Source of the DNA: Pseudobutyrivibrio sp. ACV-2
Lineage (GTDB): Bacteria; Bacillota; Clostridia; Lachnospirales; Lachnospiraceae
Direction: 5' to 3'
NCBI RefSeq assembly: GCF_900107545.1
Contig: NZ_FNQZ01000001.1
Coordinates: forward strand, 372,001-436,000
DNA length: 64,000 nucleotides
Below the pieces are notes generated by a model that worked only from the letters and a program-made list of their open reading frames with translations, was not told where the DNA came from and searched no databases. The translations under genes and the position numbers were made by a program. Each line of letters begins with the position of its first letter. Positions within the stretch are counted from its first letter, which is position 1. This document shows positions 8,733 to 38,306 of this stretch, piece after piece.

Positions 8733-10802
8733 TTAGTTCTGACTCTGCACAAATCTGCACTCATCATTAGCACAAACCAGTTTGTTACCCTTTTCTACCA
8801 TGTAAGTGCCACATTTTGGACACTTTTCGGTAGTAGGCTTTGACCAGCTAATGAAATCACATTCTGGATGATTAGAACATCCAAAGAACTTTCTGCCCTT
8901 CTGTGACTTTCTGATTACTACATCACCGCCACATTTTGGACATGGAACTCCTATTTTTTCCAGGAATGGCTTTGTATTACGGCATTCCGGGAAACCAGGA
9001 CAAGCAAGGAACTTGCCGTGAGGTCCAAATTTAATAACCATGTTACGTCCGCATTCCTCACAGATTACGTCTGTAACCTCATCATGGATTTCGACCTTTT
9101 TAAGCTCTTCCTCTGCTACCTTTACAGCTTTATCCAAGTCAGGGTAGAAATTTCTTACAACAGATTTCCACTCTACTGTTCCCTCTTCTACTCCATCTAA
9201 AAGAAGTTCAAGATTTGCTGTAAATTTATCATCTACGATGATAGGGAATGAATCTACCATAATAGAATTGACAACCTCACCAAGCTCTGTTACAAACAGA
9301 TTTTTTGCTTCCTTTGTGATGTAATGTCTCTTGAGAAGTGTAGTAATTGTTGGTGAATAGGTACTTGGTCGACCAATTCCCAGTTCCTCAAGAGTCTTTA
9401 CAAGAGAAGCTTCTGTGAAATGTGGTGAAGGCTGTGTAAAATGCTGTTTCTCATCAAAGCTGTTAAATTTAAGCTTTGAATCCTCATTAAGCTTTGCAAG
9501 TGGATGTGTCTTTGCATCCTGCTCATCATCTGCATCAGTATAAATCATCATAAATCCATCAAAATTAACTGCAGACTCAGAAGCTGTAAACACCTGATTG
9601 TTTGCCTTTACGCTAAGTGAAACTGTGTCATAAACCGCATTTGCCATCTGGCTTGCCACGAAACGCTTCCATACAAGCTGATACAGTCTAAACTGATCTC
9701 TTGTAAGACTTTCCTTAATCTCCGATGGAATAAGCTCTATATTGGCAGGTCTGATTGCCTCGTGGGCATCCTGAACCTTTCCAGTATTCTTCTTAGATGA
9801 CACAGCCGCCTCTGATAAATAGTTATCACCATAGTTTGCAGATATAAAGCCTTCAGCCATAGCTCTTGCTTCATCAGAAACACGAGTTGAATCAGTACGA
9901 AGATATGTAATCAAACCGACTGTACCGTGCCCCTTGACGCTGACGCCTTCATAAAGCTGCTGTGCAACGCTCATAGTCTTTTGAATTGAGAAATTAAGTG
10001 CCTTTGATGCTTCCTGTTGCATTGTAGATGTTGTAAATGGAAGTGGTGCTTTCTTTTCTCTTTTGCCATGTTTAATGGAATCTATTACATAATCTGCTCC
10101 ATCAAGCTCAGCCATTATTTTATCAAGGCTTTCCTTATCAGAAATATCTTTCTTTCCTGTACTATCGCCATAATACTTTGCTGTGATAGGCTTTTTGGAA
10201 CCTGGCACATCAAGAAGTACATCAAGTGTGTAATACTCTTGAGGAATAAACTGCTCAATTTCCTTTTCCCTGTCACAAATGATTCTAAGGGCAACTGACT
10301 GAACACGTCCGGCAGAAAGCCCTCTTTTTACCTTTGTCCAAAGAAGTGGTGAAATCTCATAACCCACCATTCTATCAAGCATTCTACGTGCCTGCTGAGC
10401 ATCAACCAGACCCATATCGATTTCTCTAGGATTTTTCAGAGAATTCTTTACTGCCGTCTTTGTGATTTCATTGAAAGTAATTCTGTAAACCTTTTTATCC
10501 TGTAAATTGAGGGCGTAAGTGAGATGCCAAGAAATGGCTTCCCCCTCACGGTCGGGATCAGTTGCCAGATAAATCTTATCTGCCTTCTTTACTTCCTTGC
10601 GAAGTGCAGCAAGTAGCTCTCCCTTTCCTCGTATTGTTATATATTTAGGTTCAAAATCATTTTCAGGGTCAAAACCAAGCTGTGATTTAGGCATATCTCT
10701 AACATGTCCCTGGGAAGCCATTACCTCATAATTGCTTCCTAAAAACTTCTTGATGGTATGCACCTTAGCTGGCGACTCCACAATAACAAGATTTTTTGCC
10801 AT
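8733..10802 (-). CDS. topA: DNA topoisomerase I (type IA)
   Basis: A 689-residue type IA topoisomerase that relaxes negative supercoils. It has an N-terminal Toprim domain (VIVESPAKVHTIKKFLG; DPDREGEAISWH near residue 110), the catalytic tyrosine in ITYLRTDSTRVS near residue 300, and a C-terminal tail of three zinc ribbons (CEECGRNM, CPKCGGDV, CPKCGTYM, each with a paired distal Cys2). This matches bacterial TopA in length and domain order. It has its own promoter candidate at 10894-10922. Its neighbours dprA upstream and codY downstream resemble B. subtilis smf-topA-...-codY, where trmFO, xerC and hslVU lie between. Confidence 0.98.
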   Translation of the reverse strand: MAKNLVIVESPAKVHTIKKFLGSNYEVMASQGHVRDMPKSQLGFDPENDFEPKYITIRGKGELLAALRKEVKKADKIYLATDPDREGEAISWHLTYALNLQDKKVYRITFNEITKTAVKNSLKNPREIDMGLVDAQQARRMLDRMVGYEISPLLWTKVKRGLSAGRVQSVALRIICDREKEIEQFIPQEYYTLDVLLDVPGSKKPITAKYYGDSTGKKDISDKESLDKIMAELDGADYVIDSIKHGKREKKAPLPFTTSTMQQEASKALNFSIQKTMSVAQQLYEGVSVKGHGTVGLITYLRTDSTRVSDEARAMAEGFISANYGDNYLSEAAVSSKKNTGKVQDAHEAIRPANIELIPSEIKESLTRDQFRLYQLVWKRFVASQMANAVYDTVSLSVKANNQVFTASESAVNFDGFMMIYTDADDEQDAKTHPLAKLNEDSKLKFNSFDEKQHFTQPSPHFTEASLVKTLEELGIGRPSTYSPTITTLLKRHYITKEAKNLFVTELGEVVNSIMVDSFPIIVDDKFTANLELLLDGVEEGTVEWKSVVRNFYPDLDKAVKVAEEELKKVEIHDEVTDVICEECGRNMVIKFGPHGKFLACPGFPECRNTKPFLEKIGVPCPKCGGDVVIRKSQKGRKFFGCSNHPECDFISWSKPTTEKCPKCGTYMVEKGNKLVCANDECRFVQSQN

Positions 10803-10893
10803 ATAAATTTCATCTCCAAATATTAATAACTATCGACAAATATAATTGCTCGTATCAGTTATATTATTTTGCTTCATAGTAGAAACGTTACTC

Positions 10894-10922
10894 ACTATAC
10901 AACAATAATTTTCTATTTTCAA
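10894..10922 (-). promoter_or_regulatory. SigA promoter of topA
   Basis: TTGAAA, 17 bases, TATAGT on the minus strand, about 90 bases before the topA ATG, in the 180-base dprA-topA spacer. Confidence 0.6.
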
Positions 10923-10982
10923 GGAAAACTTTAAATATTGACAGAAAACATTAAAATTTGATTATGAATATTACCCAACTGT

Positions 10983-12077
10983 TTAGCACTTGATGTAATT
11001 GTTTTTGAAGGCCTCACATAACAGGCCCATTCTTTCCAAAGCCAGTACATTAGACAGTAATTGCAGATAATCTATATTTGTTTCCTCCACAACCTGAGAT
11101 AGACTTTTAGGGTATAAATCAAATAACTCATAAACCTTTCCTAATTCATTTGACAATTTAGGCTTTTTGGCTTTTGCAACCTGCTCTTTAGGAGAAATAT
11201 CATGTCCATATAGTTCGGATAAATCACTCATAAACTGGTCAATTGACCACAAAATTTCTGCTCCCTGGGAAATAAGCTTATTACAACCAGTTGAAAGATT
11301 ATCCCCTACTCTTCCTGGAACAACAAATATTTCTTTTCCCTGCTCCAGTGCAAAATCTGCAGTAATTAAGGAACCTGATTTTTCCCTGGCTTCTACCACT
11401 ATCACAATATCAGAAAGTGCTGAGACTATTCGATTTCTTCTTGGGAAATTCATCGGAAGTGGTGTTGCGCCCATCTGGTACTCTGATAAGATTGCTCCAC
11501 TTTTTGCTATTTCTTCATATAGTAATCTATTTTCAGCAGGATAAATCACATCGCAACCACTTCCAAGTACCGCAACAGTCTTTCCAGCGGCTTCCAGGCA
11601 GCCTTTGTGCCCATAGGCATCTACGCCCCTTGCCATACCGCTTATAATGGTAAATCCTGCCTTAGCCAGCCTGTTTCCAAGCTCCTGCGCCATTTTTCTG
11701 CCATAGGCACTACATCTTCTAGCTCCTACTATCGAAATACATTTATTAAAATCAGGCAGTGTTCCATTATAAAAAAGCCCGTATGGCGGATCATAAATAT
11801 TCCTAAGCTTCTGCGGATATTTGTCTGATTCCATTGTTATAAAGGAAAAAGGGGAATGATTAAAGTCGTCGTATTCCCTTTCCAAATCAAATTTATTTCT
11901 ATCAGCTATAAAGCTTTCCACCTTTGTAGGCTCCATAAGACCGCTTTCCAGGAGTTCTTTATCACTTGCCCTATAAATATTGTAGGAATCATAAAAGTGC
12001 TCCAAAAGGCGGCTTTTTCTACTATAAGGTATATCCTCATTTCTCAGGAACCAATACTCATAAATTTTTGTATTCAT
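10983..12077 (-). CDS. dprA: DNA-processing protein DprA (Smf)
   Basis: A 364-residue protein with an N-terminal SAM-like region, the Rossmann-like DprA core (SIVGARRCSAYGRKMAQELG; ISGMARGVDAYGHKGCLEA; AVLGSGCDVIYPAENRLLY) and a C-terminal winged-helix (DprA-type DML1-like) domain. It loads RecA on incoming single-stranded DNA in transformation. The ATG at 12077 overlaps the comM stop as TGATG and has GGGAGG 7 bases upstream, so longer frames open to 12092 are less likely. comM, dprA and comEC together suggest retained transformation genes, but no comG pilus genes are in this window. Confidence 0.96.
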   Translation of the reverse strand: MNTKIYEYWFLRNEDIPYSRKSRLLEHFYDSYNIYRASDKELLESGLMEPTKVESFIADRNKFDLEREYDDFNHSPFSFITMESDKYPQKLRNIYDPPYGLFYNGTLPDFNKCISIVGARRCSAYGRKMAQELGNRLAKAGFTIISGMARGVDAYGHKGCLEAAGKTVAVLGSGCDVIYPAENRLLYEEIAKSGAILSEYQMGATPLPMNFPRRNRIVSALSDIVIVVEAREKSGSLITADFALEQGKEIFVVPGRVGDNLSTGCNKLISQGAEILWSIDQFMSDLSELYGHDISPKEQVAKAKKPKLSNELGKVYELFDLYPKSLSQVVEETNIDYLQLLSNVLALERMGLLCEAFKNNYIKC

Positions 12078-13606
12078 CAGCATTCCTCCCAATACTTTTT
12101 GTCCAAACCTCGATAAAGGATTGCCTCCTGCAGATGAATAAGTTTAATGTCTTCACTTTCATCCATATCGGCCAAAGTTCTGGCAACTCTAAGCACCTTA
12201 TGATAAGTTCTCGCAGTCAATGAATACTTGTTATACATAGCTTCCATATATGCTGTGTTTCCATCTGATAAATTGCAAAATTTGCCAATAAGGTTGCTGG
12301 GAATCTGACTATTAAATAGAAACCCATATTCTCTGTAGCGATTTCTTTGAATTTCGTGGGCAGCAATCACGCGCTTTCTAATACAATCAGAAGATTCATT
12401 ATCCTCTCTTTTTGAAATCTGAGTAAAATTTAATGTTGGCGCCTCCACACAAATATCAATTCTATCCAAAAGTGGCTGAGATATTTTAGAAAGATATCTC
12501 ATAATGGATTGTCTGGTACAATGACATCGGTTTAAATCTGGATAATATCCACAGGAACATGGATTCATAGCCGCAACCAAAACGAAATCAGCTGGATAGG
12601 TAAAGCTTCCAGTAGCCCTTGCTATATTAACCTGTTTATCTTCAAGCGGCTGTCTTAGCATTTCTATGGTGGATTTATTAAATTCTGTCAGCTCATCTAA
12701 AAATAGTACGCCTCCATGAGATAAGGATATTTCTCCAGGCTTTGGAATCTGCCCACCACCTACAAGTCCCTGGGCTGAAACAGTGTGATGAGGGCTTCTG
12801 AATGGACGGTTTTTGATTAATCCTTTTCTTTCATTAAAAATACCTGAGACAGAATAAATCTTTGATACCTCCATCTGCTCTTCCAAATCCATTGGAGGCA
12901 AAATAGAAGGAATACATTTAGCAACCATCGATTTGCCAGCCCCCGGTGGTCCCACCATAAGCAGGTTGTGCATACCACTTATTGCCACCTCACAAGCTCT
13001 TCTAAGAGCCTGTTGTCCATTAATCATTGAAAAATCATATGCGGTTTCAATTATATTTGAAGTGTTTTCAGAGAAAATAGGTTCCATCTCATAATGCTCT
13101 TCATTGATAATATCTATAACATCCTTTAGCTTAGACACCCCAAGTGTGATAATTTCAGGCACAAGCCTAGCCTCTGTCAGATTATCCTTTGGTACTATTA
13201 CAATCTCAAGTCCTTTTTTCTTGGCCTCCATCACCATAGATAATACGCCGTTCACAGGCTGTATTTTGCCATCTAAGCCAATTTCTCCAAGTAGGCATAT
13301 ATCGCTTAGTCTACTGCTATCAATTATGCCTATAGCAGATAAAACAGCCACAGCAATGGGTAAATCAAAACCCGCTCCTGTCTTTTTGATGCTTGCAGGG
13401 GTGAAATTCACTGTGATTCGCTTAATAGGAAGCGCATACCCTTCATTTTTTAAGGCAGCTCGTACCCTTTCCTTGGCCTCCTTCACCTCCGAAGAAAGAT
13501 ATCCCACCATTTCAAACATGGGCATACCTTCAGATATATCTGCCTCAACAGATATAATCCTAGAATCGATACCATAAATGGTAGCGGTATTTACAATACT
13601 ATACAA
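12077..13606 (-). CDS. comM: ComM/YifB-family Mg-chelatase-like AAA+ ATPase
   Basis: A 509-residue protein. The N-terminal Lon-protease-like ChlI domain reads YGIDSRIISVEADISEGMP. An AAA+ Mg-chelatase core has Walker A GPPGAGKSMVAK near residue 220, Walker B GVLFLDELTEF and the sensor-like FVLVAAMNPCSCG. A C-terminal Mg-chelatase subunit region (LTARTYHKVLRVARTLADM) follows. ComM acts as a hexameric helicase promoting branch migration of donor DNA in natural transformation. The start is a TTG at 13606 with AAAGGAG five bases upstream; no ATG fits the conserved N-terminus. It is translationally coupled to dprA. Confidence 0.95.
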   Translation of the reverse strand: MYSIVNTATIYGIDSRIISVEADISEGMPMFEMVGYLSSEVKEAKERVRAALKNEGYALPIKRITVNFTPASIKKTGAGFDLPIAVAVLSAIGIIDSSRLSDICLLGEIGLDGKIQPVNGVLSMVMEAKKKGLEIVIVPKDNLTEARLVPEIITLGVSKLKDVIDIINEEHYEMEPIFSENTSNIIETAYDFSMINGQQALRRACEVAISGMHNLLMVGPPGAGKSMVAKCIPSILPPMDLEEQMEVSKIYSVSGIFNERKGLIKNRPFRSPHHTVSAQGLVGGGQIPKPGEISLSHGGVLFLDELTEFNKSTIEMLRQPLEDKQVNIARATGSFTYPADFVLVAAMNPCSCGYYPDLNRCHCTRQSIMRYLSKISQPLLDRIDICVEAPTLNFTQISKREDNESSDCIRKRVIAAHEIQRNRYREYGFLFNSQIPSNLIGKFCNLSDGNTAYMEAMYNKYSLTARTYHKVLRVARTLADMDESEDIKLIHLQEAILYRGLDKKYWEEC

Positions 13607-13644
13607 TTAAACTCCTTTTGGGGATTTAAGAATATGAAAATATT

Positions 13645-13683
13645 AAGAAAAAAGACAGGAGTCATGATAACATACTCCTGTCC
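13645..13683 (-). terminator. Rho-independent terminator of trpS operon
   Basis: Minus strand: GACAGGAGT, 11-base loop, ACTCCTGTC, then TTTTTTCTT. It lies 35 bases after the trpS stop and ends just upstream of comM. Confidence 0.9.
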
Positions 13684-13717
13684 TAAAAACAATGAAAAAT
13701 AATTTTATTGGTTTCCT

Positions 13718-14728
13718 CTATCTTATACGCTCAGTAAGTCCAAGCTTCTTGTGAACTTTTCTTAAGGTCTTGTTAGCAAAATAAGATGCTTTTTCAGCGT
13801 TTTCCTTTATACATTCATTAATGTATGTTTTGTCCTTTTCAAGTTCGGCACAGCGTGCATGGAATGGATCAAGCATATCTGCTACAGCCTCACCAACTGC
13901 AAGCTTAAAGTCTCCATAGCCCTTTCCATCGAATTCCTTTGCTACTTCATCCATAGTTTTGCCTGTTACAACACCATAGATTTCCATAAGGTTAGATACA
14001 CCTGGCTTGTTTTCTACATCGTAGCGAACCTCAGCATCTGAATCTGTAACAGCCTTTTTGAACTTGCGGATTATAGTATCTCTGTCATCAATAAGGTAAA
14101 TTGTAGCATTAACATTTTCGTCAGATTTTGACATCTTTTTGGTAGGCTCGGCAAGAGACATGATTCTTGCACCAGCCTTTGGGAAATATCCCTCAGGTAT
14201 AGTGAAAACATCACCATAAATATTGTTAAAGCGCTCTGCTACGTCACGGCAGATTTCAAGATGCTGCTTTTGGTCAGCACCGATTGGTACCAAATCAGCC
14301 TGATAAAGAAGAATATCTGCAGCCATAAGTGCAGGATATGTAAATAAGCCTGCGTTAATATTATCAGCATGCTTTGCTGATTTATCCTTAAACTGAGTCA
14401 TTCTGTTAAGCTCGCCCATGTATGTGAAGCAGTCGAGAATCCATCCAAGCTCAGCATGAGCCGAAACATGAGACTGAAAATAGATGCAGTTCTTCTTTGG
14501 ATCAAGTCCTGCTGCTACATACTGAGTGTAGATTCTTCTTGCGTTCTGCTTGAACTCTGTAGGATTTTGTCTGACTGTAAGTGAATGTAAATCCATAACA
14601 CCAAAGAAGCAATCATAATCCTCGTGTAAATTTACCCAGTTCTTAAGTGCTCCTATATAATTTCCAATGGTAAGCTTTCCTGTAGCCTGCATACCTGAAT
14701 ATAATACTTTTCTTTCCTTTTCCATCAT
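13718..14728 (-). CDS. trpS: Tryptophanyl-tRNA synthetase
   Basis: A 336-residue class Ic synthetase that charges tRNA-Trp. The HIGH-like motif is in SGMQATGKLTIGNYIGALKN and the KMSKS loop is KKMSKSDENVNATIYL near residue 195. GADQKQHLEICRDVAERFN is the typical tryptophan-pocket region. Two tandem ATGs (14728 and 14725) follow GGAG; either may be used. No T-box is visible upstream. Instead it follows DUF5662 by 11 bases and a GH13-like gene further up, so it appears to be the last gene of a three-gene operon. Confidence 0.97.
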   Translation of the reverse strand: MMEKERKVLYSGMQATGKLTIGNYIGALKNWVNLHEDYDCFFGVMDLHSLTVRQNPTEFKQNARRIYTQYVAAGLDPKKNCIYFQSHVSAHAELGWILDCFTYMGELNRMTQFKDKSAKHADNINAGLFTYPALMAADILLYQADLVPIGADQKQHLEICRDVAERFNNIYGDVFTIPEGYFPKAGARIMSLAEPTKKMSKSDENVNATIYLIDDRDTIIRKFKKAVTDSDAEVRYDVENKPGVSNLMEIYGVVTGKTMDEVAKEFDGKGYGDFKLAVGEAVADMLDPFHARCAELEKDKTYINECIKENAEKASYFANKTLRKVHKKLGLTERIR

Positions 14729-14739
14729 TATTTCTCCAG

Positions 14740-15273
14740 TTATTTATTATGTAAAATTTCTTTTCTAATGTAGTCGTTTGTAGCATCCTCGCCATATTCA
14801 GCAAGATGTGTAAGCATTTTTTCGAGCAAATCTGCTGTGTTTTTATGCATCATGTATTTGCCCTTGCCACGCTCATAATACTCAAGTGCACTCCTATCAG
14901 TATATTTATCCTTTTGATAGGTCTTGCAGGCAGCAACTCTGTCACAATACATTTCAACAACATATTTAACTGGCATCTCCATGCCTGTCATACTATGATT
15001 TTCATCTAAACCATAATCAATCCAATACTCGAAATGATGCTTATTCCTGCCTTTATGATGCAGCCAAGCAAGCGACACCCCTGTCTCAAGCCTTTCTGCA
15101 TTATTAGGGCTCTTATCTCCCTGAAAGTATTTAGCTCCAACAGAAAATTCTACCCAGGAATATTTTGATAAATCGTGGGTAAGTCCCTGCCAATATAATC
15201 CAACTGCAAAGCAGCCTTTTCTTACAAGATGTCTATGATGCGTAATAGTTTTAAAATGTTTCCAAGCCTTCAT
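14740..15273 (-). CDS. DUF5662 family protein
   Basis: A 177-residue soluble protein rich in His, Trp and Tyr. It starts KAWKHFKTITHHRHLVRKG and has repeated histidine motifs (LTHDLSKYSWVEF, LAWLHHKGRNKHHFEYW, VEMYCDRVAACK). The pattern of conserved His/Asp over predicted helices resembles DUF5662 and is suggestive of a metal-binding helical protein, but no function is established. There is no signal peptide or membrane segment. It sits 36 bases after a degenerate GH13 gene and 11 bases before trpS, so co-transcription is likely. Confidence 0.8.
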   Translation of the reverse strand: MKAWKHFKTITHHRHLVRKGCFAVGLYWQGLTHDLSKYSWVEFSVGAKYFQGDKSPNNAERLETGVSLAWLHHKGRNKHHFEYWIDYGLDENHSMTGMEMPVKYVVEMYCDRVAACKTYQKDKYTDRSALEYYERGKGKYMMHKNTADLLEKMLTHLAEYGEDATNDYIRKEILHNK

Positions 15274-15309
15274 TTATCAATCAACTCCTAGTTTTACTTA
15301 AATAGAATT

Positions 15310-17163
15310 CTATTTAGTATTTACCCTCAATCCCACAAGTACACTTATGGAACTTCCAGGTACTTTTATTGTTTGCTGATTATCAATCGGCTTTGGCGTA
15401 AAATCACTTTTATCGTTGTAGTCGGCGGTGTTAAAACAAATGCGCCATCGTTTGCCAGGAGCTAAAAGAGGAAGTGCCATTTCCACAGTGTCATAGTGGA
15501 AGTTGTAGCAAATAAATACCTCTTCTTTTTCATCTACATAAGCTCCGTTATATAGAACACCTAACGCCTTCTGCTCTTCTCCTATGCTCATCATCCATGG
15601 TTCTGAACCGTGGAAGGACATATCTGGAAGGCCCAGGTGCTTGTAATCGTTCATTAAGAAAGGTGTCTCTACCCTTAGACATTTATGCTTCTTTCTGAAA
15701 TCTATAAGCTGCTCAACAAATCTCTGCAGGGATGCTTTACTTTTATTTTTAGTAAATACTGTGTAGCCAATTTCATTATCCTGACAATATGGATTATTAT
15801 TCCCCTGATGAGTAGCCGCAACTTCATCGCCTGCCACAATAAGTGGAACACTTTGAGACATCATCAGAGCCGCAAGTGAATTGCGCATCTGCCTGAATCT
15901 GTTGGCATTTATCATTTTGTTGGTGGTTTTTCCTTCAACACCGTAGTTGAAGGAGAAATTATTGTTTGTGCCGTCTCTGTTGTCCTCACCATTATCTAAG
16001 TTGTGCTTCTCGCCGTATGAATAGGAATCCCACAGTGAAAAACCATTTACGTTTGCCATGTAATTGACAAAACCGTAAGCACCATTCTGACGGCGCATAT
16101 GATTAGCAAACTGCACCATGCTACCATTCATATGATTTTGAATCTGACGGGTAACATTCATGAAGGAATCATTGTATACAAAAAGATGTTTACTGCCCGA
16201 CTCACTGCATAGAATCTCTTCTGGAATATATTCGTAGAAGATTTTTGTAGTGCCAAGATAAGGTTCTTTTGCGATTCTCTCTATTGGTGCATTGCAGCCC
16301 ACAATATGAAAACCATCTATATGGAAGTATTTTACATAATATTTTAAACATTCAAGTTGAACATCTGATGATGTTTCCTGGGCAAATGCCATCTCCATGA
16401 TAACTTCAAAACCGTTGTTATGAAGCTTTGAAACCATGGCACGAAGACCTTCTGCTGCCTTAGATGCACCACCAAAATAAGATGCTTTTGGTGCAAAATA
16501 ATCTGCAAGGCCAAACCCCCAGTAATTAACTTTTCCTATATAATCCTGAACCTGTGTGATTTTGCCCTTCGAGGAAATGCTTGATTTGCATTCTAAAAAC
16601 AGCTCCTCAAAATCGTATAAAGGCATAATTTCAAGGCTTGTTATTCCAAGCTTTTTAAAGTATGGAAGCTTAGATAAAAGCCCTTTATATGAGCCAACTT
16701 TTGCCGAAGACATCCCATTTCCTGCTGTAAAGCCACGCATATGTAGCTTGTACAAAACCATGTCAGTAGGGGCTATAGATACCTTTGTATCCTTCCAGTC
16801 TTTTTCAATATGTGAAATACCTGAATAAACCTTAAACTGTTGCTTTTCTCTGGCTGCTGCATCAGCCCAAATATCTCTTCCCACTATAGCTGTAGCGTAA
16901 GAATCTACGTAGGTTGTTTTGTCTTCCTTTAGTAAATAACAAATATCATCAGGATTTATACCTGAAACAGTTACAGAATAAACCAGACCTAAAGCATGTT
17001 CATCAGAAAGATCTATTGTAGAAATCTGTTTTTTAGTTGATTTGTCGAATAACAGAATAGAGATTTTTTCAGAAGTGGCATTTACTGCAAATGTAAATGT
17101 TACTTTATCTCTTCCACATATTCGTGGTCCATATTCTCTAAAATCTCCTCTTGAAACGTTCAT
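15310..17163 (-). CDS. Glycogen-debranching-type GH13 protein lacking catalytic residues
   Basis: A protein of about 617 residues that aligns by eye with GlgX/isoamylase-type GH13 proteins: an N-terminal CBM48-like region, a TIM barrel and a C-terminal beta domain. The landmark EKHNLDNGEDNRDGTNNNFS of GlgX is intact. However, the region II nucleophile position (GFRFD in GlgX) reads GFHIV, region I (NH) reads AFAQE, and the region IV HD before GF reads VN. Nucleophile and transition-state residues are therefore replaced, and hydrolysis is unlikely. The ATG at 17163 has GGGG upstream; alternative starts are ATG 17175 and TTG 17181. It heads an operon with DUF5662 and trpS. A binding or regulatory role is inference only. 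Confidence 0.85.
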   Translation of the reverse strand: MNVSRGDFREYGPRICGRDKVTFTFAVNATSEKISILLFDKSTKKQISTIDLSDEHALGLVYSVTVSGINPDDICYLLKEDKTTYVDSYATAIVGRDIWADAAAREKQQFKVYSGISHIEKDWKDTKVSIAPTDMVLYKLHMRGFTAGNGMSSAKVGSYKGLLSKLPYFKKLGITSLEIMPLYDFEELFLECKSSISSKGKITQVQDYIGKVNYWGFGLADYFAPKASYFGGASKAAEGLRAMVSKLHNNGFEVIMEMAFAQETSSDVQLECLKYYVKYFHIDGFHIVGCNAPIERIAKEPYLGTTKIFYEYIPEEILCSESGSKHLFVYNDSFMNVTRQIQNHMNGSMVQFANHMRRQNGAYGFVNYMANVNGFSLWDSYSYGEKHNLDNGEDNRDGTNNNFSFNYGVEGKTTNKMINANRFRQMRNSLAALMMSQSVPLIVAGDEVAATHQGNNNPYCQDNEIGYTVFTKNKSKASLQRFVEQLIDFRKKHKCLRVETPFLMNDYKHLGLPDMSFHGSEPWMMSIGEEQKALGVLYNGAYVDEKEEVFICYNFHYDTVEMALPLLAPGKRWRICFNTADYNDKSDFTPKPIDNQQTIKVPGSSISVLVGLRVNTK

Positions 17164-17219
17164 AAAAAGCCCCATCTTCAAAGTTTAGCGTATATTTTGT
17201 CTAAAATAATAGAAATCAC

Positions 17220-17248
17220 TAGACATTACTAATGATGAATTATATCAT
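17220..17248 (+). promoter_or_regulatory. Candidate promoter of DUF1292 gene
   Basis: TAGACA, 17 bases, TATCAT, about 44 bases before the ATG at 17292 in the divergent spacer. Confidence 0.4.
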
Positions 17249-17291
17249 AAGGCTATACCTTAAACAAATATAATCTTAAAAGGAGTAAAAG

Positions 17292-17600
17292 ATGGACGAA
17301 AATCAGGTTTTTCCAGTTGATAACGAGGATGATGATGTAGTTGTCACTTTAAATTTAGATGATGGTACAGAGGTAACATGTGAGATTCTTACAATCTTTG
17401 ATGTAAATGAGCAGGACTATATTGTTCTTCTTCCCCTTGATAAAAATGGCGAGCCTAACGCTGATGGTGAAGTATATATATATCGTTATTTCGAAGATGA
17501 AAGCGGTGCACCATCGCTTGATAACATTGATTCTGATGAGGAATATGAGGCAGTCTCTAAGCGTTTTGATGAAATCTACGCCGAGGATGACGAGGACTAA
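17292..17600 (+). CDS. DUF1292 family protein (YrzB-like)
   Basis: A 102-residue, very acidic protein (DEDDDVV at the start, AEDDED at the end) with the DUF1292 pattern of a short beta-rich domain: VVTLNLDDGTEVTCEILTIF, then YIVLLPLDK and EVYIYRY. Function is unknown in the family; B. subtilis YrzB lies in the yrrL-yrzB region. The ATG has AAAAGGAG six bases upstream. It is one of the few plus-strand genes here and is transcribed alone, ending in a strong terminator that overlaps the convergent helicase gene. Confidence 0.85.
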   Translation: MDENQVFPVDNEDDDVVVTLNLDDGTEVTCEILTIFDVNEQDYIVLLPLDKNGEPNADGEVYIYRYFEDESGAPSLDNIDSDEEYEAVSKRFDEIYAEDDED

Positions 17601-17605
17601 TCAGT

Positions 17606-19411
17606 TTAATCAAACATTTCATCTAAAAATCGGGATTTATCCCGATTTTTTTTATTGGTATAGGTAATATAAAGGTTTCTTTTGCAACGGGTAATCCCCA
17701 CATAAAAAAGTCTTCGCTCCGCTTCTATATCCTCTCTTGACTGACATTTATTTGTTGGAATCACGCCATCACTGGCAGATATAATAAACACATTTTCAAA
17801 TTCCAGTCCCTTGCTGGAATGAAGTGTATATAAACCTACCTTTCCGGATTTATCTACTACCCTGTTTCGATTTTCATAATCAATCTTTAGTCTGAGTCCA
17901 TTTAATTTATCTATAGCCTGTCTGATGGTTCTGCAATCCTTAAAAACCTCCTGAATAAATTCTATTACCTCCTGATATTCTGCTATATCCACCTCATTGC
18001 TAACAGCTTCCTGAAGCAAAAAATTGTCATAGTCCATAACTCTACACAGGTAGCTAATAGCAGCTCCAGGTGACATTTTTGCCATTAGCTTTATATCAGC
18101 CCAAAAAGACTCTACCACCTTATAATAGCCAGGGTTATTGTCATAAAAATCAAGCATGGATTTTTCTGTTATACCATTTTCTACGGCCTGTCTATGTAAG
18201 TAACGGTTGGGCCTGTTGATTACAGACAACAATCTGGCTTTAGTGGCATTTCCTATAGCAATCTGAAAATAGCTTTCTATATCTGCAATAATAAAATGAG
18301 AATAGATATTTGGCATTTTCTCCTTCAAATAGAAACTAATTCCACTTGTAGTAAGCTTGTCCACCAAATATCTAGCATCCGAGTGATTTCTGTATAATAC
18401 AGCTATTTCATCATAAGAAGTGCCATTTTTTCTAAGTTCGCCAATCTTATTTATTATAAATTCAGCTTCTATGGCAGGGGATTTTTTCTCTATTATTTGG
18501 ATATTACCATCACCTACAGTGCTTTTTATATTTTTTTCAAAACGATTTTCATTCTTTCCGATGAGAAGACCTGCTGATTTCACAACATTGGCAGGATTTC
18601 TGTAATTGTAATCTAAAACAATTTGTTTAGCATTTGGATAGTATTCCATAAAATCACGCATAATTTTAGGATTTGAGCCCCTAAAACCATAGATAGACTG
18701 ATCATCATCTCCTACGCAAAACAAATTATGAGTTCTATCTGCCAGAAGATTAGTCAGCTTAAACTGTAAATCATTCATGTCCTGCATTTCATCCACAAGA
18801 TAATATGAAAATCTATGCTGCCATTTATTTAAAATGTCAGGTCTATCAATAAAAAGCTGATAGGCTTTAATGAGCATGTCGTCAAAATCAATGACATGAT
18901 ATTTAGCCTTTAGACTCTCATAGGCTTCTATGAAGCATTTAAGCTTTGTGGCATCTGCGTATTTCGGCTCGTAGGATTCTAAATCAATATTTTTATTATT
19001 AACAGTAGATAATTCAGTGATATAGGAATTTGCCAGAGCTATGTCATCCTTATCTATATCTGCTATAGTCATAGCTTCCTTCAAAATCTTATTTCTCATC
19101 TGTCCCATTATGATATCAGATGATTTAAATCCCTTTTCCTTTTGTAGAATGCCCCAAAATAAAGAATGGAACGTTCCAAAGGTCACTGGATGTACATCAT
19201 CTGATAACCTGTTGAAACGTTCCTTCATTTCAATTGCCGCAGCTTTGGTAAATGTAATTACCAAAATCTCCTGCGCTGGTACACCAGAATTAATAAGCTC
19301 ACTAATTCGTTTAGTTAATACAGCTGTTTTACCGCTTCCAGGCCCTGCTATTACAAGACAAGGCCCCTCTTTGTGAAAAACAGCCTGCTTTTGTGGGACG
19401 TTTAGTTCCAT
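17606..19411 (-). CDS. UvrD/PcrA-like superfamily 1 DNA helicase
   Basis: A 601-residue SF1A 3'-5' helicase, shorter than PcrA or UvrD (about 720-740). Motifs in order are Q-motif LNVPQKQAV, Walker A GPGSGKTAVLT, Ia VITFTKAAAIEMKERF, Walker B-type LVDEMQDMNDLQ, III GDDDQSIYGFRGS, IV DYNYRNPANVV, V LHSSKGLEFENVFI and VI YVGITRCKRNLYI. It probably has a DNA repair or recombination role. The C-terminal extension for UvrB/RNA polymerase contact in PcrA is missing, so I leave the symbol blank. It lies 63 bases downstream of gltX without a clear terminator between, so the two may share a transcript. Its last codons overlap a convergent terminator. Confidence 0.92.
   Translation of the reverse strand: MELNVPQKQAVFHKEGPCLVIAGPGSGKTAVLTKRISELINSGVPAQEILVITFTKAAAIEMKERFNRLSDDVHPVTFGTFHSLFWGILQKEKGFKSSDIIMGQMRNKILKEAMTIADIDKDDIALANSYITELSTVNNKNIDLESYEPKYADATKLKCFIEAYESLKAKYHVIDFDDMLIKAYQLFIDRPDILNKWQHRFSYYLVDEMQDMNDLQFKLTNLLADRTHNLFCVGDDDQSIYGFRGSNPKIMRDFMEYYPNAKQIVLDYNYRNPANVVKSAGLLIGKNENRFEKNIKSTVGDGNIQIIEKKSPAIEAEFIINKIGELRKNGTSYDEIAVLYRNHSDARYLVDKLTTSGISFYLKEKMPNIYSHFIIADIESYFQIAIGNATKARLLSVINRPNRYLHRQAVENGITEKSMLDFYDNNPGYYKVVESFWADIKLMAKMSPGAAISYLCRVMDYDNFLLQEAVSNEVDIAEYQEVIEFIQEVFKDCRTIRQAIDKLNGLRLKIDYENRNRVVDKSGKVGLYTLHSSKGLEFENVFIISASDGVIPTNKCQSREDIEAERRLFYVGITRCKRNLYITYTNKKNRDKSRFLDEMFD
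17627..17653 (+). terminator. Rho-independent terminator of DUF1292, inside helicase 3' end
   Basis: AATCGGGAT-TT-ATCCCGATT followed by eight T on the plus strand. On the minus strand the same bases encode the last residues of the helicase (NRDKSRF) and form the same stem followed by only five T. Confidence 0.9.
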
Positions 19412-19474
19412 ATACCTCCTATACGCCCAAATTCAAGGTTACCAGCCTATTATTTAATTAAATATTTGCCAAAA

Positions 19475-20926
19475 TTATTTAGACAATTTTTCGATTGCCG
19501 CTTTGATACGCTTGATAGACTCTTCCTTGCCAAGGATTTCCATCAGCTCTGTTGCACCGCCAGGAGTCATCTGCTTACCTGAAACAGCTGTACGTACTGG
19601 CCAGAGAACGTATCCGTTTTTGTATTCATGCTCTGCAGCAAAGCCTGTAAGTGCTGCATATAACGCATCATTTGAATAATCATCCAAGCCTTCAAGAACT
19701 GGTAAGAGCTCCTTTAATACAGCAAGTGATGACTCTTCGTTTGTCTTCATCTTTTTATGAGTATACATTGCACTATCATACTCAGGTACAGCATCAAAGA
19801 AATCAACATGATCCTTGATGTCTGGGAAAATCTCAATACGAGTCTGAACCATCTTTGCAATCTTCTTGAGGTCTACATCGCTCTTGATGTATTCCTTGAG
19901 ATATGGCTCAGCCATCTCGTAGAATTTGTCAAAGTCCATAGCCTTCATGTATTCGCCGTTCATCCACTTAAGCTTTGTGATATCGAATACTGCAGGTGAC
20001 TTTGAAATACGATGATAATCGAATTCTTTTACAAGCTCCTCTAATGAGAAGATTTCGTTATCATTTTCTGGAGACCAGCCAAGTAAAGCTACGAAATTGA
20101 CAACCGCCTCTGTTAAGAAGCCCTGCTCAATTAAATCCTCATAAGATGAGTGACCTGAACGCTTTGAAAGCTTCTGATGCTCTTCATTTGTGATAAGTGG
20201 GCAGTGAATGTACTTAGGTACTTCCCAGCCAAAAGCCTCGTAAAGACGATTGTACTTTGGTGATGATGAAATATATTCATTACCACGAACAACGTGTGTG
20301 ATACCCATAAGGTGATCGTCAACAACGTTGGCAAAATTGTATGTAGGATAACCATCTGATTTGATGAGAATCATATCGTCAAGCTCTGCATTATCAACTG
20401 TGATTTCTCCATAAAGCTCATCTACAAAAGTAGTTGTGCCTGTACGTGGATTGTTCTGACGGATAACATATGGCTTACCAGCTGCAAGATTGGCCTCTAC
20501 CTCTTCCTTTGAAAGGTTGAGACAATGCTTGTCATAAATAGAAATCTCTTTATCACCGATAACCTGCTTACACTCTGCAAGACGCTCTTCATCGCAGAAG
20601 CAGTAATATGCTTCGCCTTTTTCGATAAGCTTTTTAGCATACTCAAGATAGATGCCCTGCTCCTGACGCTCTGACTGAACATATGGACCACAGCCCTTGT
20701 CCTTGTCTGGGCCTTCATCATGAATAAGACCTGTTGCTGCAAGTGTTCTATAGATAATATCAACAGCACCTTCCACAAGACGCTCCTGATCAGTATCTTC
20801 AATTCGAAGAAGGAAATCGCCTCCCTCGTGCTTAGCAACTAAATATGCATAAAGAGCTGTACGAAGATTTCCAACGTGCATACGACCAGTTGGTGATGGT
20901 GCAAAACGTGTTCTTACTTTACTCAT
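19475..20926 (-). CDS. gltX: Glutamyl-tRNA synthetase
   Basis: A 483-residue class I synthetase. It has the HIGH motif in [23 protein letters not shown] and [16 protein letters not shown] motifs, the glutamate-tRNA core [24 protein letters not shown] and a KMSKS-like loop [11 protein letters not shown] near residue 250. The length is full. It charges tRNA-Glu, and in many Firmicutes also tRNA-Gln before amidation. The preceding gene on this strand ends in a terminator at 20943-20982, so gltX is probably started from the short 20927-20942 region or by readthrough; no clear promoter is seen. Confidence 0.97.
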
Positions 20927-20942
20927 TTTATTTCCTCACTAT

Positions 20943-20982
20943 AAAAAAACATAAAATTAAGGACTGCAAAAGTGCAATCCTT
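20943..20982 (-). terminator. Rho-independent terminator after Cthe_2159-like lipoprotein
   Basis: Minus strand: AAGGATTGCA, 4-base loop, TGCAGTCCTT, then TAATTTTATG and seven T. Confidence 0.8.
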
Positions 20983-21002
20983 AATAATTCTATACCAAAA
21001 TC

Positions 21003-22304
21003 CTAATTTTGCAAGTCATTTTTCTGAGGAGGCTCCCCTTGTGGCTTTTGTCCCTGCGGCATATTTTCTGGATCAAAATCTTCAGGTAGATTATCAGGAT
21101 TAAAATCACTATTACCCCTAGGGCCTCCTTTTCCCATGCCACCTTGGAAATCACCTTCAGCCCCTGTGGAGGTTATATTATTCTCACCGCCATTTTCGAT
21201 AATATTGCTATTACTTCCACCAGTGGCCGTAACCTTACCGCCATTAATGATGATTGAAGATTCATCTGCATCAAGTCCGCACTCAGGAGAATCAGCACCT
21301 GTCACATTTATCTCACCATCATTTATTGTAATGCATCCATCATATCCGCCATTACAGTCTATACCATCATTATTTTGACTAGTAACATTAACCTTTCCAC
21401 CGTTAATCTCAATATAATAACCTGCGTTTATTCCATCATCCGATGATTCTATAGTGATATCACCGTCATTAATGCATATGCTGTCCTTGGACTCGATACC
21501 TTCATTTTGACTTGTAACACATAAAGTTCCAGCATTTATGACAAGAAGTTTTTCAACCTCTATTCCATCACTTACAGCATTAATCGTGATAGTTCCTCCG
21601 TCTACACAAACTAAATCGTTTGCATTTATGCCATCTGTACCATTTGATGTGATATTTATAGTACCACTTTCAATATAAAGCTCATCATCGCAGGAAATAC
21701 CATGCTTATGATTTCCATTTATATTTAAAGTACCATCACCTAAAATAATCAAATCATCTTCGCTTGAAATAACGCCTTTTCCTATTTCTTCACCTGTTGA
21801 TGAATCTGTTTCATAGGTATCGCTATCTGTCAAAGTATTCGTTGTACCCTCAGCCATTTCTATATAAAGATTTTTGACCTGGCTTGCATATATTACAGGT
21901 CCCTTTTCACTTGTAAGCTCAACGCCATTTAAAATGAGCTTTACGCTTTCATCAGTATTTATAAGTATTGAGGCCTTTTGAGACGAACCACTAAGAGTAT
22001 AGGTTCCGCCTTCAGTTATATACAAAACTCCATCCTCATTAGAGCAGCCACTGCCGTCTATAGACATATCACCTTCTGAAAATGTGATACTGGCCTTTGT
22101 GGTCCAATCATCTTTTATTTCAAGTACATTATACTCCACTGTTCCAGACGAAGATGTAGTAGATGTGTCTGATGCTGTAGTCGTGGTAGATGTGGTATTT
22201 TTTGAAGAATCAGAGCCTGCTTCCAAGGTGGATGTGCCTGCACATGCTGACAAGCTTGCAACTATCACTAAACTTAATAAACTTAAATAAATTTTCTTTT
22301 TCAA
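21003..22304 (-). CDS. Cthe_2159/DUF4353-type beta-helix lipoprotein
   Basis: A 433-residue exported lipoprotein with lipobox LSACAG (Cys about residue 21) and a Ser/Thr/Asp-rich linker to residue 60. A long parallel beta-helix of short Asp/Asn/Gly repeats follows (INGNHKHGISCDDELYIESG, ITSNGTDGINANDLVC, SDGIEVEKLLV, NEGIESKDSIC, DDGINAGYYIEING, NDGIDCNGG). The C-terminal tail is rich in Gly, Pro and Gln. Cthe_2159-type proteins bind polygalacturonate or cellulose, and the Asp-rich turns suggest Ca2+. A TTG start at 22304 has AAAGGAG 5 bases upstream. It is the last gene of a VTC-DUF4956-lipoprotein operon. Confidence 0.85.
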   Translation of the reverse strand: MKKKIYLSLLSLVIVASLSACAGTSTLEAGSDSSKNTTSTTTTASDTSTTSSSGTVEYNVLEIKDDWTTKASITFSEGDMSIDGSGCSNEDGVLYITEGGTYTLSGSSQKASILINTDESVKLILNGVELTSEKGPVIYASQVKNLYIEMAEGTTNTLTDSDTYETDSSTGEEIGKGVISSEDDLIILGDGTLNINGNHKHGISCDDELYIESGTINITSNGTDGINANDLVCVDGGTITINAVSDGIEVEKLLVINAGTLCVTSQNEGIESKDSICINDGDITIESSDDGINAGYYIEINGGKVNVTSQNNDGIDCNGGYDGCITINDGEINVTGADSPECGLDADESSIIINGGKVTATGGSNSNIIENGGENNITSTGAEGDFQGGMGKGGPRGNSDFNPDNLPEDFDPENMPQGQKPQGEPPQKNDLQN

Positions 22305-22319
22305 GGCAACTCCTTTCCT

Positions 22320-23006
22320 TTAAAGCTCCTCTGCTTCATTTGCATCACAACGGCCACATACTACAGTAAGATTTCCATTTCTCATTCTTATTTCATCTAA
22401 AAATGATTTTTCCAATTTTTCATCGTTTAACTTTACTTTATAGTTGATTTCATACATAGAACCCATATTAGTAGTCTTTACTGCTATTTGCTTGTGTGTC
22501 TTTGTGTATTTTTCAAATAAATCATCAAAAATTTCGCTGTAATCTAGATTTTCAGGAATAGTTACTCTTAAATCTTTTTCTTCCATATCAGATGCTGCAT
22601 ATTTTGTATAATACATAACAAAATGAATTGGGCAAATCAAAGCTGTTGTAGCAGCTGCAAGTGGTAGTTCACCTATAGCACAAATTATACCAATAGTCAT
22701 TGTAAAGAATACAAATCCAATATCTCTTGAGCTTCCCTGCAAAGATCTAAATCTTACCAATGAAAAGGCTCCCACTACTGCAAGGCTGGTGCCAAAATTT
22801 CCGTTTACCGCAAGCATTACAAGGCACACAAGGCTAGGCATGATAATTAGTGTTCGCGCAAAATTTTTAGATGTTTTTCCTGTGTAAATATATGTTAATG
22901 ATATGATAAGTCCCAGTAATGATGCAACTGATGCATCTACAAGGGCATCTGTAACTGTAAGTGTAGTAGTTGTTGATGATTGAATTGCTGATAATAATGC
23001 TTCCAT
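22320..23006 (-). CDS. DUF4956 membrane protein
   Basis: A 228-residue protein with about four membrane helices in the N-terminal half (VASLLGLIISLTYIYTG, LIIMPSLVCLVMLAV, VFFTMTIGIICAIGELPLA, TTALICPIHFVMYYT) and a C-terminal cytoplasmic ferredoxin-like domain (ENLDYSEIFDDLFEKY, SMYEINYKVKL). The conserved loop SLVRFRSLQGSSRDIGFVFF matches DUF4956. Function is unknown. The family is repeatedly found next to VTC-type polyphosphate polymerases, as here (6-base gap), so a transport or coupling role is a plausible inference. Confidence 0.88.
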   Translation of the reverse strand: MEALLSAIQSSTTTTLTVTDALVDASVASLLGLIISLTYIYTGKTSKNFARTLIIMPSLVCLVMLAVNGNFGTSLAVVGAFSLVRFRSLQGSSRDIGFVFFTMTIGIICAIGELPLAAATTALICPIHFVMYYTKYAASDMEEKDLRVTIPENLDYSEIFDDLFEKYTKTHKQIAVKTTNMGSMYEINYKVKLNDEKLEKSFLDEIRMRNGNLTVVCGRCDANEAEEL

Positions 23007-23012
23007 TTAGGT

Positions 23013-23708
23013 TTAAGCCTCCTTCAACTGCTTCTTATAAAAGTTTCCGTATTTTGAAAATGATGTTGGATAAATCCTGTATTTTGATAATAGTCTTGCA
23101 AACCATAGTGGCATTGCATCTGAGATTTTTACCTCCATAAGACGATAGCCCTTCGATAACAAATATTCATTATCTTCATCGCTATAAAGAGTCAAATTAA
23201 AATCTCTGCTTCGAATATTAATATCAAAGGTTACTCTAAACTCAGAATCCTCTTTTCCAAACATCGCCAGCCTGTCATAGGCAATATATCTTTTAGGCTC
23301 CAGCGGATAATGATTAAAAAAGTAATCTATTTCTTTAAATATCTGGTTGGGATTCGTTGGCATTTTACCTGTAATCAAATATCTTTCAGCCTCTTCCATG
23401 GGAATGGCAACTCTTCGTTTATTTACCAGACCCTTATATTTCTTTTTAATCTCTAAAAAACACATGCTGTCATAGGTTGGTTTTCCATAACAGCGAACTC
23501 TAAATTTCTCTTTGTACTTCGGTCCTTCAATTGAAGTCCTGATAAGCTCATCTGTTGGAGTGTCATAGTAAATGTTTCTTATGGTATGAAGACCGTATTC
23601 GTCTTCTTCCATGTACTCATCCAGCTCTGCTTTAAAATTCACATAAGTATCTTCGTCTAACAGAAATTTCTTCTCATATCTATTAAATACTTTTTGTATA
23701 TGTCCCAC
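23013..23708 (-). CDS. VTC-domain polyphosphate polymerase-like protein
   Basis: A 231-residue soluble protein of the VTC family (catalytic domain of yeast Vtc4), which makes polyphosphate from ATP in a tunnel lined by basic residues. Landmarks seen are RYEKKFLLDEDTY, NIYYDTPTDELIR, KEKFRVRCYGKP, CFLEIKKKYKGLVNKRR, FRVTFDINIRSR and LMEVKISDAMPLW. The key basic and acidic residues of the tunnel appear retained. The start is a GTG at 23708 with AAAGGAG six bases upstream. It is the first gene of a three-gene operon, with no CotH gene in this copy. Whether the product is truly polyphosphate is inferred. Confidence 0.85.
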   Translation of the reverse strand: MGHIQKVFNRYEKKFLLDEDTYVNFKAELDEYMEEDEYGLHTIRNIYYDTPTDELIRTSIEGPKYKEKFRVRCYGKPTYDSMCFLEIKKKYKGLVNKRRVAIPMEEAERYLITGKMPTNPNQIFKEIDYFFNHYPLEPKRYIAYDRLAMFGKEDSEFRVTFDINIRSRDFNLTLYSDEDNEYLLSKGYRLMEVKISDAMPLWFARLLSKYRIYPTSFSKYGNFYKKQLKEA

Positions 23709-34164: not shown

Positions 34165-34176
34165 CTTAACACCTCG

Positions 34177-35586: not shown

Positions 35587-35635
35587 TATAAATTACCTTT
35601 CTATAAAACCTGTTACATTTTCCTTTAAAAGAGTT

Positions 35636-35660
35636 TCCCCAAGGCATTTAACCTTGGGGA
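35636..35660 (-). other. Stem-loop between malG and amylase gene
   Basis: Minus strand TCCCCAAGG, 7-base loop, CCTTGGGGA. There is no direct U-tract, so it is more likely an mRNA processing or stability element than a terminator. Confidence 0.55.
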
Positions 35661-35718
35661 GAGAATGAAGAAAATATAAAAATTAAAATGGATTAACCAA
35701 AATCACATATTTATCTTA

Positions 35719-38300: not shown

Positions 38301-38306
38301 ATTTTA

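Follow-up and report, generated by a model that had tools for sequence, protein, structure and literature searches.

The locus and its product

The window, by which we mean the whole 64,000-nucleotide stretch of DNA analysed here, carries on its reverse strand a gene for a protein related to the debranching enzyme GlgX, followed by genes for a DUF5662 protein and TrpS, with a divergent DUF1292 gene, a UvrD-like helicase gene and a gltX-like gene on the upstream side (Table 1). An alternative TTG start at 17181 would lengthen the product by 6 residues. The protein matched the NCBIfam model TIGR02100 (GlgX) at 5.1e-76 with 256.2 bits, far under the curated cut-off of 640.9 bits, and the Pfam alpha-amylase domain at 7.5e-7, the nearest solved sequences being plant isoamylase 1 and bacterial GlgX. 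The predicted structure (pLDDT 88.7, pTM 0.90) has the isoamylase fold, with rice ISA1 as best structural match (VIA Z 42.2, rmsd 2.4 over 574 residues; predicted model, nearly full length) and S. venezuelae GlgX aligning at VIA Z 41.4 (predicted model). As modelled, this is the full GlgX/isoamylase fold, beyond chance resemblance; loops of low confidence are found at residues 381–410 (pLDDT 54–58) and 451–480 (pLDDT 58–80).

Table 1. Features of the pseudoenzyme locus, in coordinates of the window.
Feature	Position	Strand	Remarks
trpS	13718..14728	(-)	third gene of the run, 11 bases past DUF5662
DUF5662 protein, possible HD-type metal hydrolase	14740..15273	(-)	next gene downstream, 36-base gap
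GlgX-like pseudoenzyme, 617 aa counted from ATG	15310..17163	(-)	NCBIfam and Pfam matches, predicted model
Asn457, Tyr459	15787..15795	(-)	equivalents of S. venezuelae GlgX Asn534 and Tyr536 (outer sugar contacts), kept
Glu393	15985..15987	(-)	equivalent of Glu470 (outer sugar contact), kept
Region IV	16045..16050	(-)	Val372-Asn373 in place of GlgX His-Asp; reads MANVNGF
Region III	16231..16233	(-)	Glu311, acid/base position, retained here (KIFYEY)
Region II	16300..16302	(-)	Val288 at nucleophile Asp position; DGFHIV (DGFHIVG) for DGFRFD
Region I	16378..16383	(-)	Ala261-Gln262 in place of GlgX Asn-His; reads MEMAFAQ
Trp215	16519..16521	(-)	equivalent of S. venezuelae GlgX Trp222, kept
DUF1292 gene	17292..17600	(+)	divergent, within conserved gene order
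UvrD-like helicase	17606..19411	(-)	upstream part of conserved order
gltX-like gene	19475..20926	(-)	upstream part of conserved order

The GlgX landmark NGEDNRDGTNNN, reported as kept in the preliminary description of this DNA, was found in the protein, and the motif readings given there, GFHIV at the nucleophile site, AFAQ in region I and VN in region IV, were all borne out on re-reading. The accompanying statement that no catalytic residues are left holds for the nucleophile, region I and region IV, but not for region III, where Glu311 survives. From the catalytic triad Asp/Glu/Asp, the region I Asn-His and the region IV His, the window protein retains this Glu alone, and regions I and II are no longer separated by the 44-residue loop seen in GlgX. 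Since the nucleophile, the transition-state stabiliser and the active-site-adjacent loop are missing, the protein lacks the machinery of the GH13 mechanism, and judging from these residues the protein is almost certainly unable to hydrolyse by this route.

Loss of loop and catalytic residues across the group

To describe the relatives, we aligned 110 sequences, namely the 30 best whole-protein matches and 80 loci (the best 80 of 589) obtained from a search with the patterns GNNNxYCQ and KHNxxNGExN. As such a search biases counts of conservation, these were recounted on 38 loci from whole-protein or profile search and on 20 more, with one gene (G257, L164 and L185) common to both recounts and L099 identical to that gene. 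The nucleophile Asp, its residue counted by spacing, was absent in 76 of the 110 aligned sequences and present in 34. Within the 76, none of the seven canonical residues was kept in 36 sequences, one in 28, two in 11 and three in 1; all seven were found in 33 of the 34 nucleophile-bearing sequences, the remaining one (L109) being gapped at two positions. The spacing of regions I and II amounted to 23–24 residues in 76/76 and 20/20 loopless sequences versus 68–69 in 34/34 intact ones. Loss of the loop of about 44 residues is the universal mark of the group; almost no member has the nucleophile. In a tree of 109 rows, computed by a quick method with the partial L103 omitted and no plant sequences included, loopless and intact kinds fell on opposite sides of a single branch with support 100.

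Orthologues with intact catalytic residues, which the preliminary description had named as evidence against its reading, were not found among the 104 loopless sequences read (of which 102 are distinct, with the window protein counted in), where the full Asp/Glu/Asp triad occurred in none and the nucleophile Asp in two, L190 and L193, both without the acid/base Glu. The loopless L075 keeps both remaining triad members and lacks the nucleophile, and the region-III acid/base Glu, kept in 6/38 members, is not a group-wide feature. L190 and L193 (genomes G190 and G242) are distant relatives from the second recount of 20 loci, in which the Arg-x-Asp of region II is kept; the nucleophile was therefore lost more than once or else regained, and the two may possibly stand near the ancestral state.

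Retained glucan contacts

For S. venezuelae GlgX, the excerpted text of PMC9530166 lists Trp222, Tyr224, His271, Asp342, Glu378, Trp380 and His449 as contacts of the -1 sugar and Arg212, Glu470, Asn534 and Tyr536 as contacts at other sugars. We mapped these residues by motifs, with the offsets of 20 and 84 from the region-IV Asp in agreement and Arg212 unmappable. The equivalents of Trp222, Glu470, Asn534 and Tyr536 were retained in 38/38 loci and in 20/20 further loci, and that of Tyr224 was Tyr or Phe in all 38 and 20, while the positions of His271, the nucleophile and Glu378 drift freely across the group. At the position of Glu470, Glu was found in 75/76 loopless versus 19/34 intact sequences, a comparison in which the 46 pattern-found loci bias towards Glu. 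This pattern of conservation would fit a protein which grips a glucan chain without cutting it, and on these residues we consider it likely that the pseudoenzyme binds glucan. The same residues are conserved in GlgX too and lie in loops modelled with low confidence, so that their retention may reflect a need for folding and not for binding. The Pfam domain CBM_48 was detected in 3/40 members only.

Selection and distribution

Compared with a same-genus genome, the pseudoenzyme gene gave dN 0.135 and dS 2.37, values close to those of comM nearby in the same comparison (dN 0.158, dS 2.41), with dS being saturated against Pseudobutyrivibrio. The pseudoenzyme is under purifying selection. Stops were counted inside 3 of the 30 best matches with loci (L030, L045, L046), where open frames still reach 607–634 aa; a pseudogene or decaying copy is ruled out by dN/dS together with the open frames.

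The window protein was matched at E up to 1e-3 in 250 of the 299 genomes of its family. Counting as carriers all genomes in which BLAST matched the window protein at an E of 1e-45 or lower, with at most four candidates scored per genome, we found the pseudoenzyme in 235/299 family genomes; from these score-labelled genomes 30 and a further 20 sequences (the last listed rows) were read, and 50/50 were loopless by spacing or motif. An intact GlgX is present in 7 of the 15 genomes whose matches are weaker; the other 8 (e.g. G074) may hold pullulanases or very divergent members. In a class sample of 391 genomes, full-length matches (E below 1e-200) were obtained for 14/16 same-family genomes versus 0/375 others, and the 35 further genomes listed match in pieces or in part, like real GlgX and pullulanase.

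We take the family to be Lachnospiraceae from the labels of named relatives, Pseudobutyrivibrio being the closest of the named loci listed (74%). Of the 80 best pattern-search loci (from 589), 46 were loopless; 36 of them are labelled Lachnospiraceae or one of its genera and 10 have other or vaguer labels (Clostridium, Eubacterium, Clostridiales, Clostridia, Bacillota, bacterium). The proteins constitute a GlgX-derived pseudoenzyme group that is near-fixed in this one bacterial family. As a separate observation, all five sampled genomes of one genus, g207 (G207, G475, G516, G638, G672), have the pseudoenzyme and a GlgX-like frame of 726–728 aa, assigned to GlgX by its length, and are without DUF5662.

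Glycogen genes of the carriers

The window genome encodes GlgA (5.3e-158), GlgB (800 bits), two GlgP and a type I pullulanase (599 bits, cut-off 504.5), and an intact GlgX was not found there among all 17 candidates scored. Defining intact GlgX by a TIGR02100 E below 1e-100 with the best three candidates per genome scored, we found it in 98 of the 299 genomes, of which 91 also carry the pseudoenzyme; 144 genomes have the pseudoenzyme only, 7 intact GlgX only and 57 neither. GlgA stood above its cut-off in 289/299 genomes, and the pseudoenzyme occurred in 231 of these 289 and in 4 of the 10 without GlgA (Fisher p 0.008, kinship ignored). This link to GlgA is weak, because the ten GlgA-less genomes include incomplete and small ones. 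The pseudoenzyme gene itself lies outside any glycogen operon. At a distance of 15 kb, positions 32320–39572 hold a cluster in which a search identified a maltodextrin-glucosidase-like protein and a MalA-like amylase; with two permease-like proteins and a binding-protein-like lipoprotein as further members, we take it to be a maltodextrin cluster.

Gene neighbourhood and DUF5662

In relatives the order gltX, uvrD-like, DUF1292 (opposite strand), pseudoenzyme, DUF5662, trpS, comM, dprA, topA, codY recurred with gaps, where gltX, dprA, topA and codY are names we presume from the sequences. The neighbours were counted in the 20 nearest loci, which are close relatives, in 46 other loopless loci, which were selected by pattern, and in 34 intact GlgX loci, and as some loci end early, 1.5 kb downstream were available for 39/46 and 28/34. 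A same-strand DUF5662 gene lay no more than 0.8 kb downstream in 19/20, 29/46 and 0/34 of these, respectively, the gap being under 250 bases in 15 of the 19 and 19 of the 29; uvrD was found upstream in 14/20, 18/46 and 0/34 and trpS downstream in 12/20, 13/46 and 0/34. A less selected count, in which multi-contig genomes may hide some cases, placed DUF5662 within 5 kb of the pseudoenzyme in 41/88 genomes with both genes among the matches listed, with 14/17 for the top 30 matches versus 27/71 for the rest. The operon with DUF5662 and trpS proposed in the preliminary description is therefore reflected in the close DUF5662 gene of both loopless sets, but less so in the less selected count and in the occurrence of trpS.

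Across the 299 genomes, DUF5662 and the pseudoenzyme were both present in 200 and one of them alone in 35 and 46, slightly above chance (p 0.025). DUF5662 was detected in 96/391 class genomes, 86 of which lie outside the family (86/375); it occurs widely without the pseudoenzyme, and vice versa. The neighbourhood is an old gene order and no proof of joint function. Between the pseudoenzyme and DUF5662 no terminator-like site was found in the window, promoter-like sites in 11900–17700 were no commoner than in shuffles (17 vs 19.6), and a search of 10000 to 22500 gave no RNA element at gathering score.

The gap between pseudoenzyme and DUF5662 measured either under 380 or 670–790 bases (the latter in several loci such as L050, L056, L088 and L101), which would suit an additional gene or element of comparable length lying between them in some lineages. 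Also near the locus, 21003–23708 holds three genes in a row, for a repeat-rich lipoprotein, a membrane protein and a third protein presumably resembling a VTC-type polyphosphate polymerase, the roles in this row being our assumption. A phage or defence role was considered and discarded, as PHROGs matched DUF5662 only (6e-15, without an assigned function) and the sole PADLOC hit was to a weak GlgB model. Domain fusions which might name a partner were likewise discarded: in eight of the longer members, inspected by eye, the extra parts were charged low-complexity tails or probable untranslated upstream stretches.

DUF5662, a Pfam family without a named function, is more conserved than its neighbour, with a mean column identity of 64% (28 sequences) versus 49% and 38% for the pseudoenzyme. 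Invariant in 28/28 were H6, H13, H33-D34, Lys37, H72-H73, H79-H80 and D111, including an HDLSK motif, and the His and Asp residues may be metal ligands of an HD fold. In the VIA comparison of the DUF5662 model (pLDDT 90.7), 8 of the top 12 rows mention an HD or HDOD domain, and the remaining four are presumably HD proteins as well; the top matches were HD-GYP at modest Z of 6.7 and 5.7, in a list where the lack of other families proves nothing. The best Foldseek match had an E of 1.1, with none below 1, and no Pfam HD family was obtained at E up to 10 for the 28 members. From the invariant residues and the predicted structure, DUF5662 may be a metal hydrolase of the HD superfamily.

Discussion

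In this study, we describe a real, conserved group of GlgX-like pseudoenzymes, for which no earlier description was found in the open-access literature. With GlgX and isoamylase (TIGR02100) the group shares the ancestral fold, the NGE-N-DG and GNNN-YCQDN landmarks and the outer sugar contacts; it differs in having neither nucleophile, region I Asn-His, region IV His-Asp nor loop, and in a score under the cut-off. The preliminary description had suggested a selected binding or regulatory role for the dead fold. Loss of catalysis, purifying selection and the kept outer contacts agree with this suggestion, while binding and regulation themselves are inferred.

We lean towards a glucan-binding pseudoenzyme that serves glycogen metabolism as a regulator or scaffold, a reading drawn from the sequences that we rate as somewhat better supported than not. 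In this model, a GlgX-derived protein that has lost one loop and the catalytic set would still hold alpha-glucan chains on the outer side of its former cleft. With less assurance, its attachment to glycogen, or to the outer chains of glycogen, might regulate or position working glycogen enzymes, of which GlgA, GlgB, GlgP and the type I pullulanase are present in the window genome. By analogy, non-catalytic paralogues such as plant ISA2 and bacterial GlgD, the partner of GlgC, may serve as precedents; GlgD is a non-catalytic paralogue. It is presented as a regulatory subunit in bacterial glycogen metabolism in PMC10395257, yet it has another fold and belongs to another step, and is a precedent for the idea only. 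A wider form of the proposal would see a previously unrecognised, family-wide regulatory layer, in which a glucan-reading pseudoenzyme acts in many lineages without a real GlgX and a linked HD-type hydrolase provides a possible output; this we put forward as a tentative and rather doubtful extension.

S. venezuelae GlgX, which shares the fold of the pseudoenzyme, is activated by c-di-GMP according to the excerpt of PMC9530166. The corresponding motif ExR(X)6R was present within the first 130 residues of only 2/76 members, so that control by c-di-GMP is ruled out as a general feature of the group.

In a pairing with DUF5662, the GlgX-like protein would sense or bind glucan and control or tether an HD-type metal phosphohydrolase. 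The same-strand proximity at loopless loci, which intact GlgX loci do not share, the lack of a terminator-like site between the two genes, the invariant His and Asp residues and the HD or HDOD names among the VIA rows are all consistent with such a pairing. However, the linkage fades past the nearest relatives, co-occurrence is barely above chance, DUF5662 is found in class-mates outside the family, where no full-length match of the pseudoenzyme was obtained, the five sampled g207 genomes do without it, and Foldseek gives nothing below E 1. We therefore consider this explanation unlikely, and a functional unit of pseudoenzyme and DUF5662 as possible, not likely.

Quite unlikely, in our view, is an ISA2-like subunit, forming a hetero-oligomer with intact GlgX or, where GlgX is absent, with the type I pullulanase. 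Plant ISA2 provides a direct precedent, as the passages available from PMC12510319 and PMC3787081 describe a non-catalytic isoamylase paralogue which has lost catalytic residues and is retained by selection; the fold is the same, and the proteins described here likewise combine an isoamylase fold, maintained by selection, with lost catalytic residues. Intact GlgX is moreover commoner alongside the pseudoenzyme than without it (91/235 vs 7/64, p 1e-5). ISA2 acts with ISA1, however, while the pseudoenzyme is mostly found without an intact GlgX: an intact GlgX was found neither in the window genome, with all 17 candidates scored, nor, among the best three candidates per genome, in the other carriers that make up the 144/235, rendering GlgX unlikely as a general partner. 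The pseudoenzyme further lacks the 44-residue loop relative to bacterial GlgX, and its origin is likely separate from that of plant ISA2, with the tree holding no plant sequences.

A repurposed enzyme, whose barrel gained a new activity using other residues, would be in line with a group-specific Asp at position 513 of L017 in 96% of the 76 sequences and with a His at the region-II Arg in 35/38. Against it, this His occurs in only 5/20 more distant members, and Asp513 is the sole acidic residue at the eight conserved positions specific to the group, conservation elsewhere being common to GlgX, which makes this explanation very improbable. An unusual but working debranching enzyme, or an error of alignment, can practically be dismissed in spite of the acid/base Glu of the window protein and the nucleophile Asp of two relatives, as the full triad occurs in 0/104 and real GlgX forms a separate group.

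The pseudoenzyme may already have been listed under another name. For Butyrivibrio hungatei MB2003, the accessible part of PMC5716241 lists a GlgX2 of 648 aa and a GlgX1 of 726 aa, both as debranching enzymes, and by its length GlgX2 is probably a member of the group. In a later transcriptome paper (PMC6344614), glgX2 is listed as rising by 3.27 log2 on pectin; its locus tag differs there, and the sign of the FDR seems to be corrupted. Two glgX homologues are mentioned for Blautia obeum in a review (PMC10395257). It is from size or number that we infer GlgX2 or such second homologues to be the dead protein. In the excerpt of a review of prokaryotic alpha-glucan enzymes (PMC11046441), an inactive GH13 isoform is marked in the archaea table, and inactive prokaryotic GH13 proteins are thus not unheard of, while no such GlgX appears in that excerpt. 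Within the open-access literature, to which our search extended, we found no paper describing the loopless group and none naming DUF5662.

Annotation by best hit would label the pseudoenzyme a debranching enzyme, and counts of GlgX as well as models of glycogen breakdown would then be wrong for genomes whose sole GlgX-like gene is dead. This concerns a dominant gut bacterial family, most sampled members of which are carriers by score. If the pseudoenzyme binds glycogen, it would be a bacterial counterpart of plant ISA2 working without an active isoamylase, and the puzzle of retained dead debranching enzymes would become testable in bacteria.
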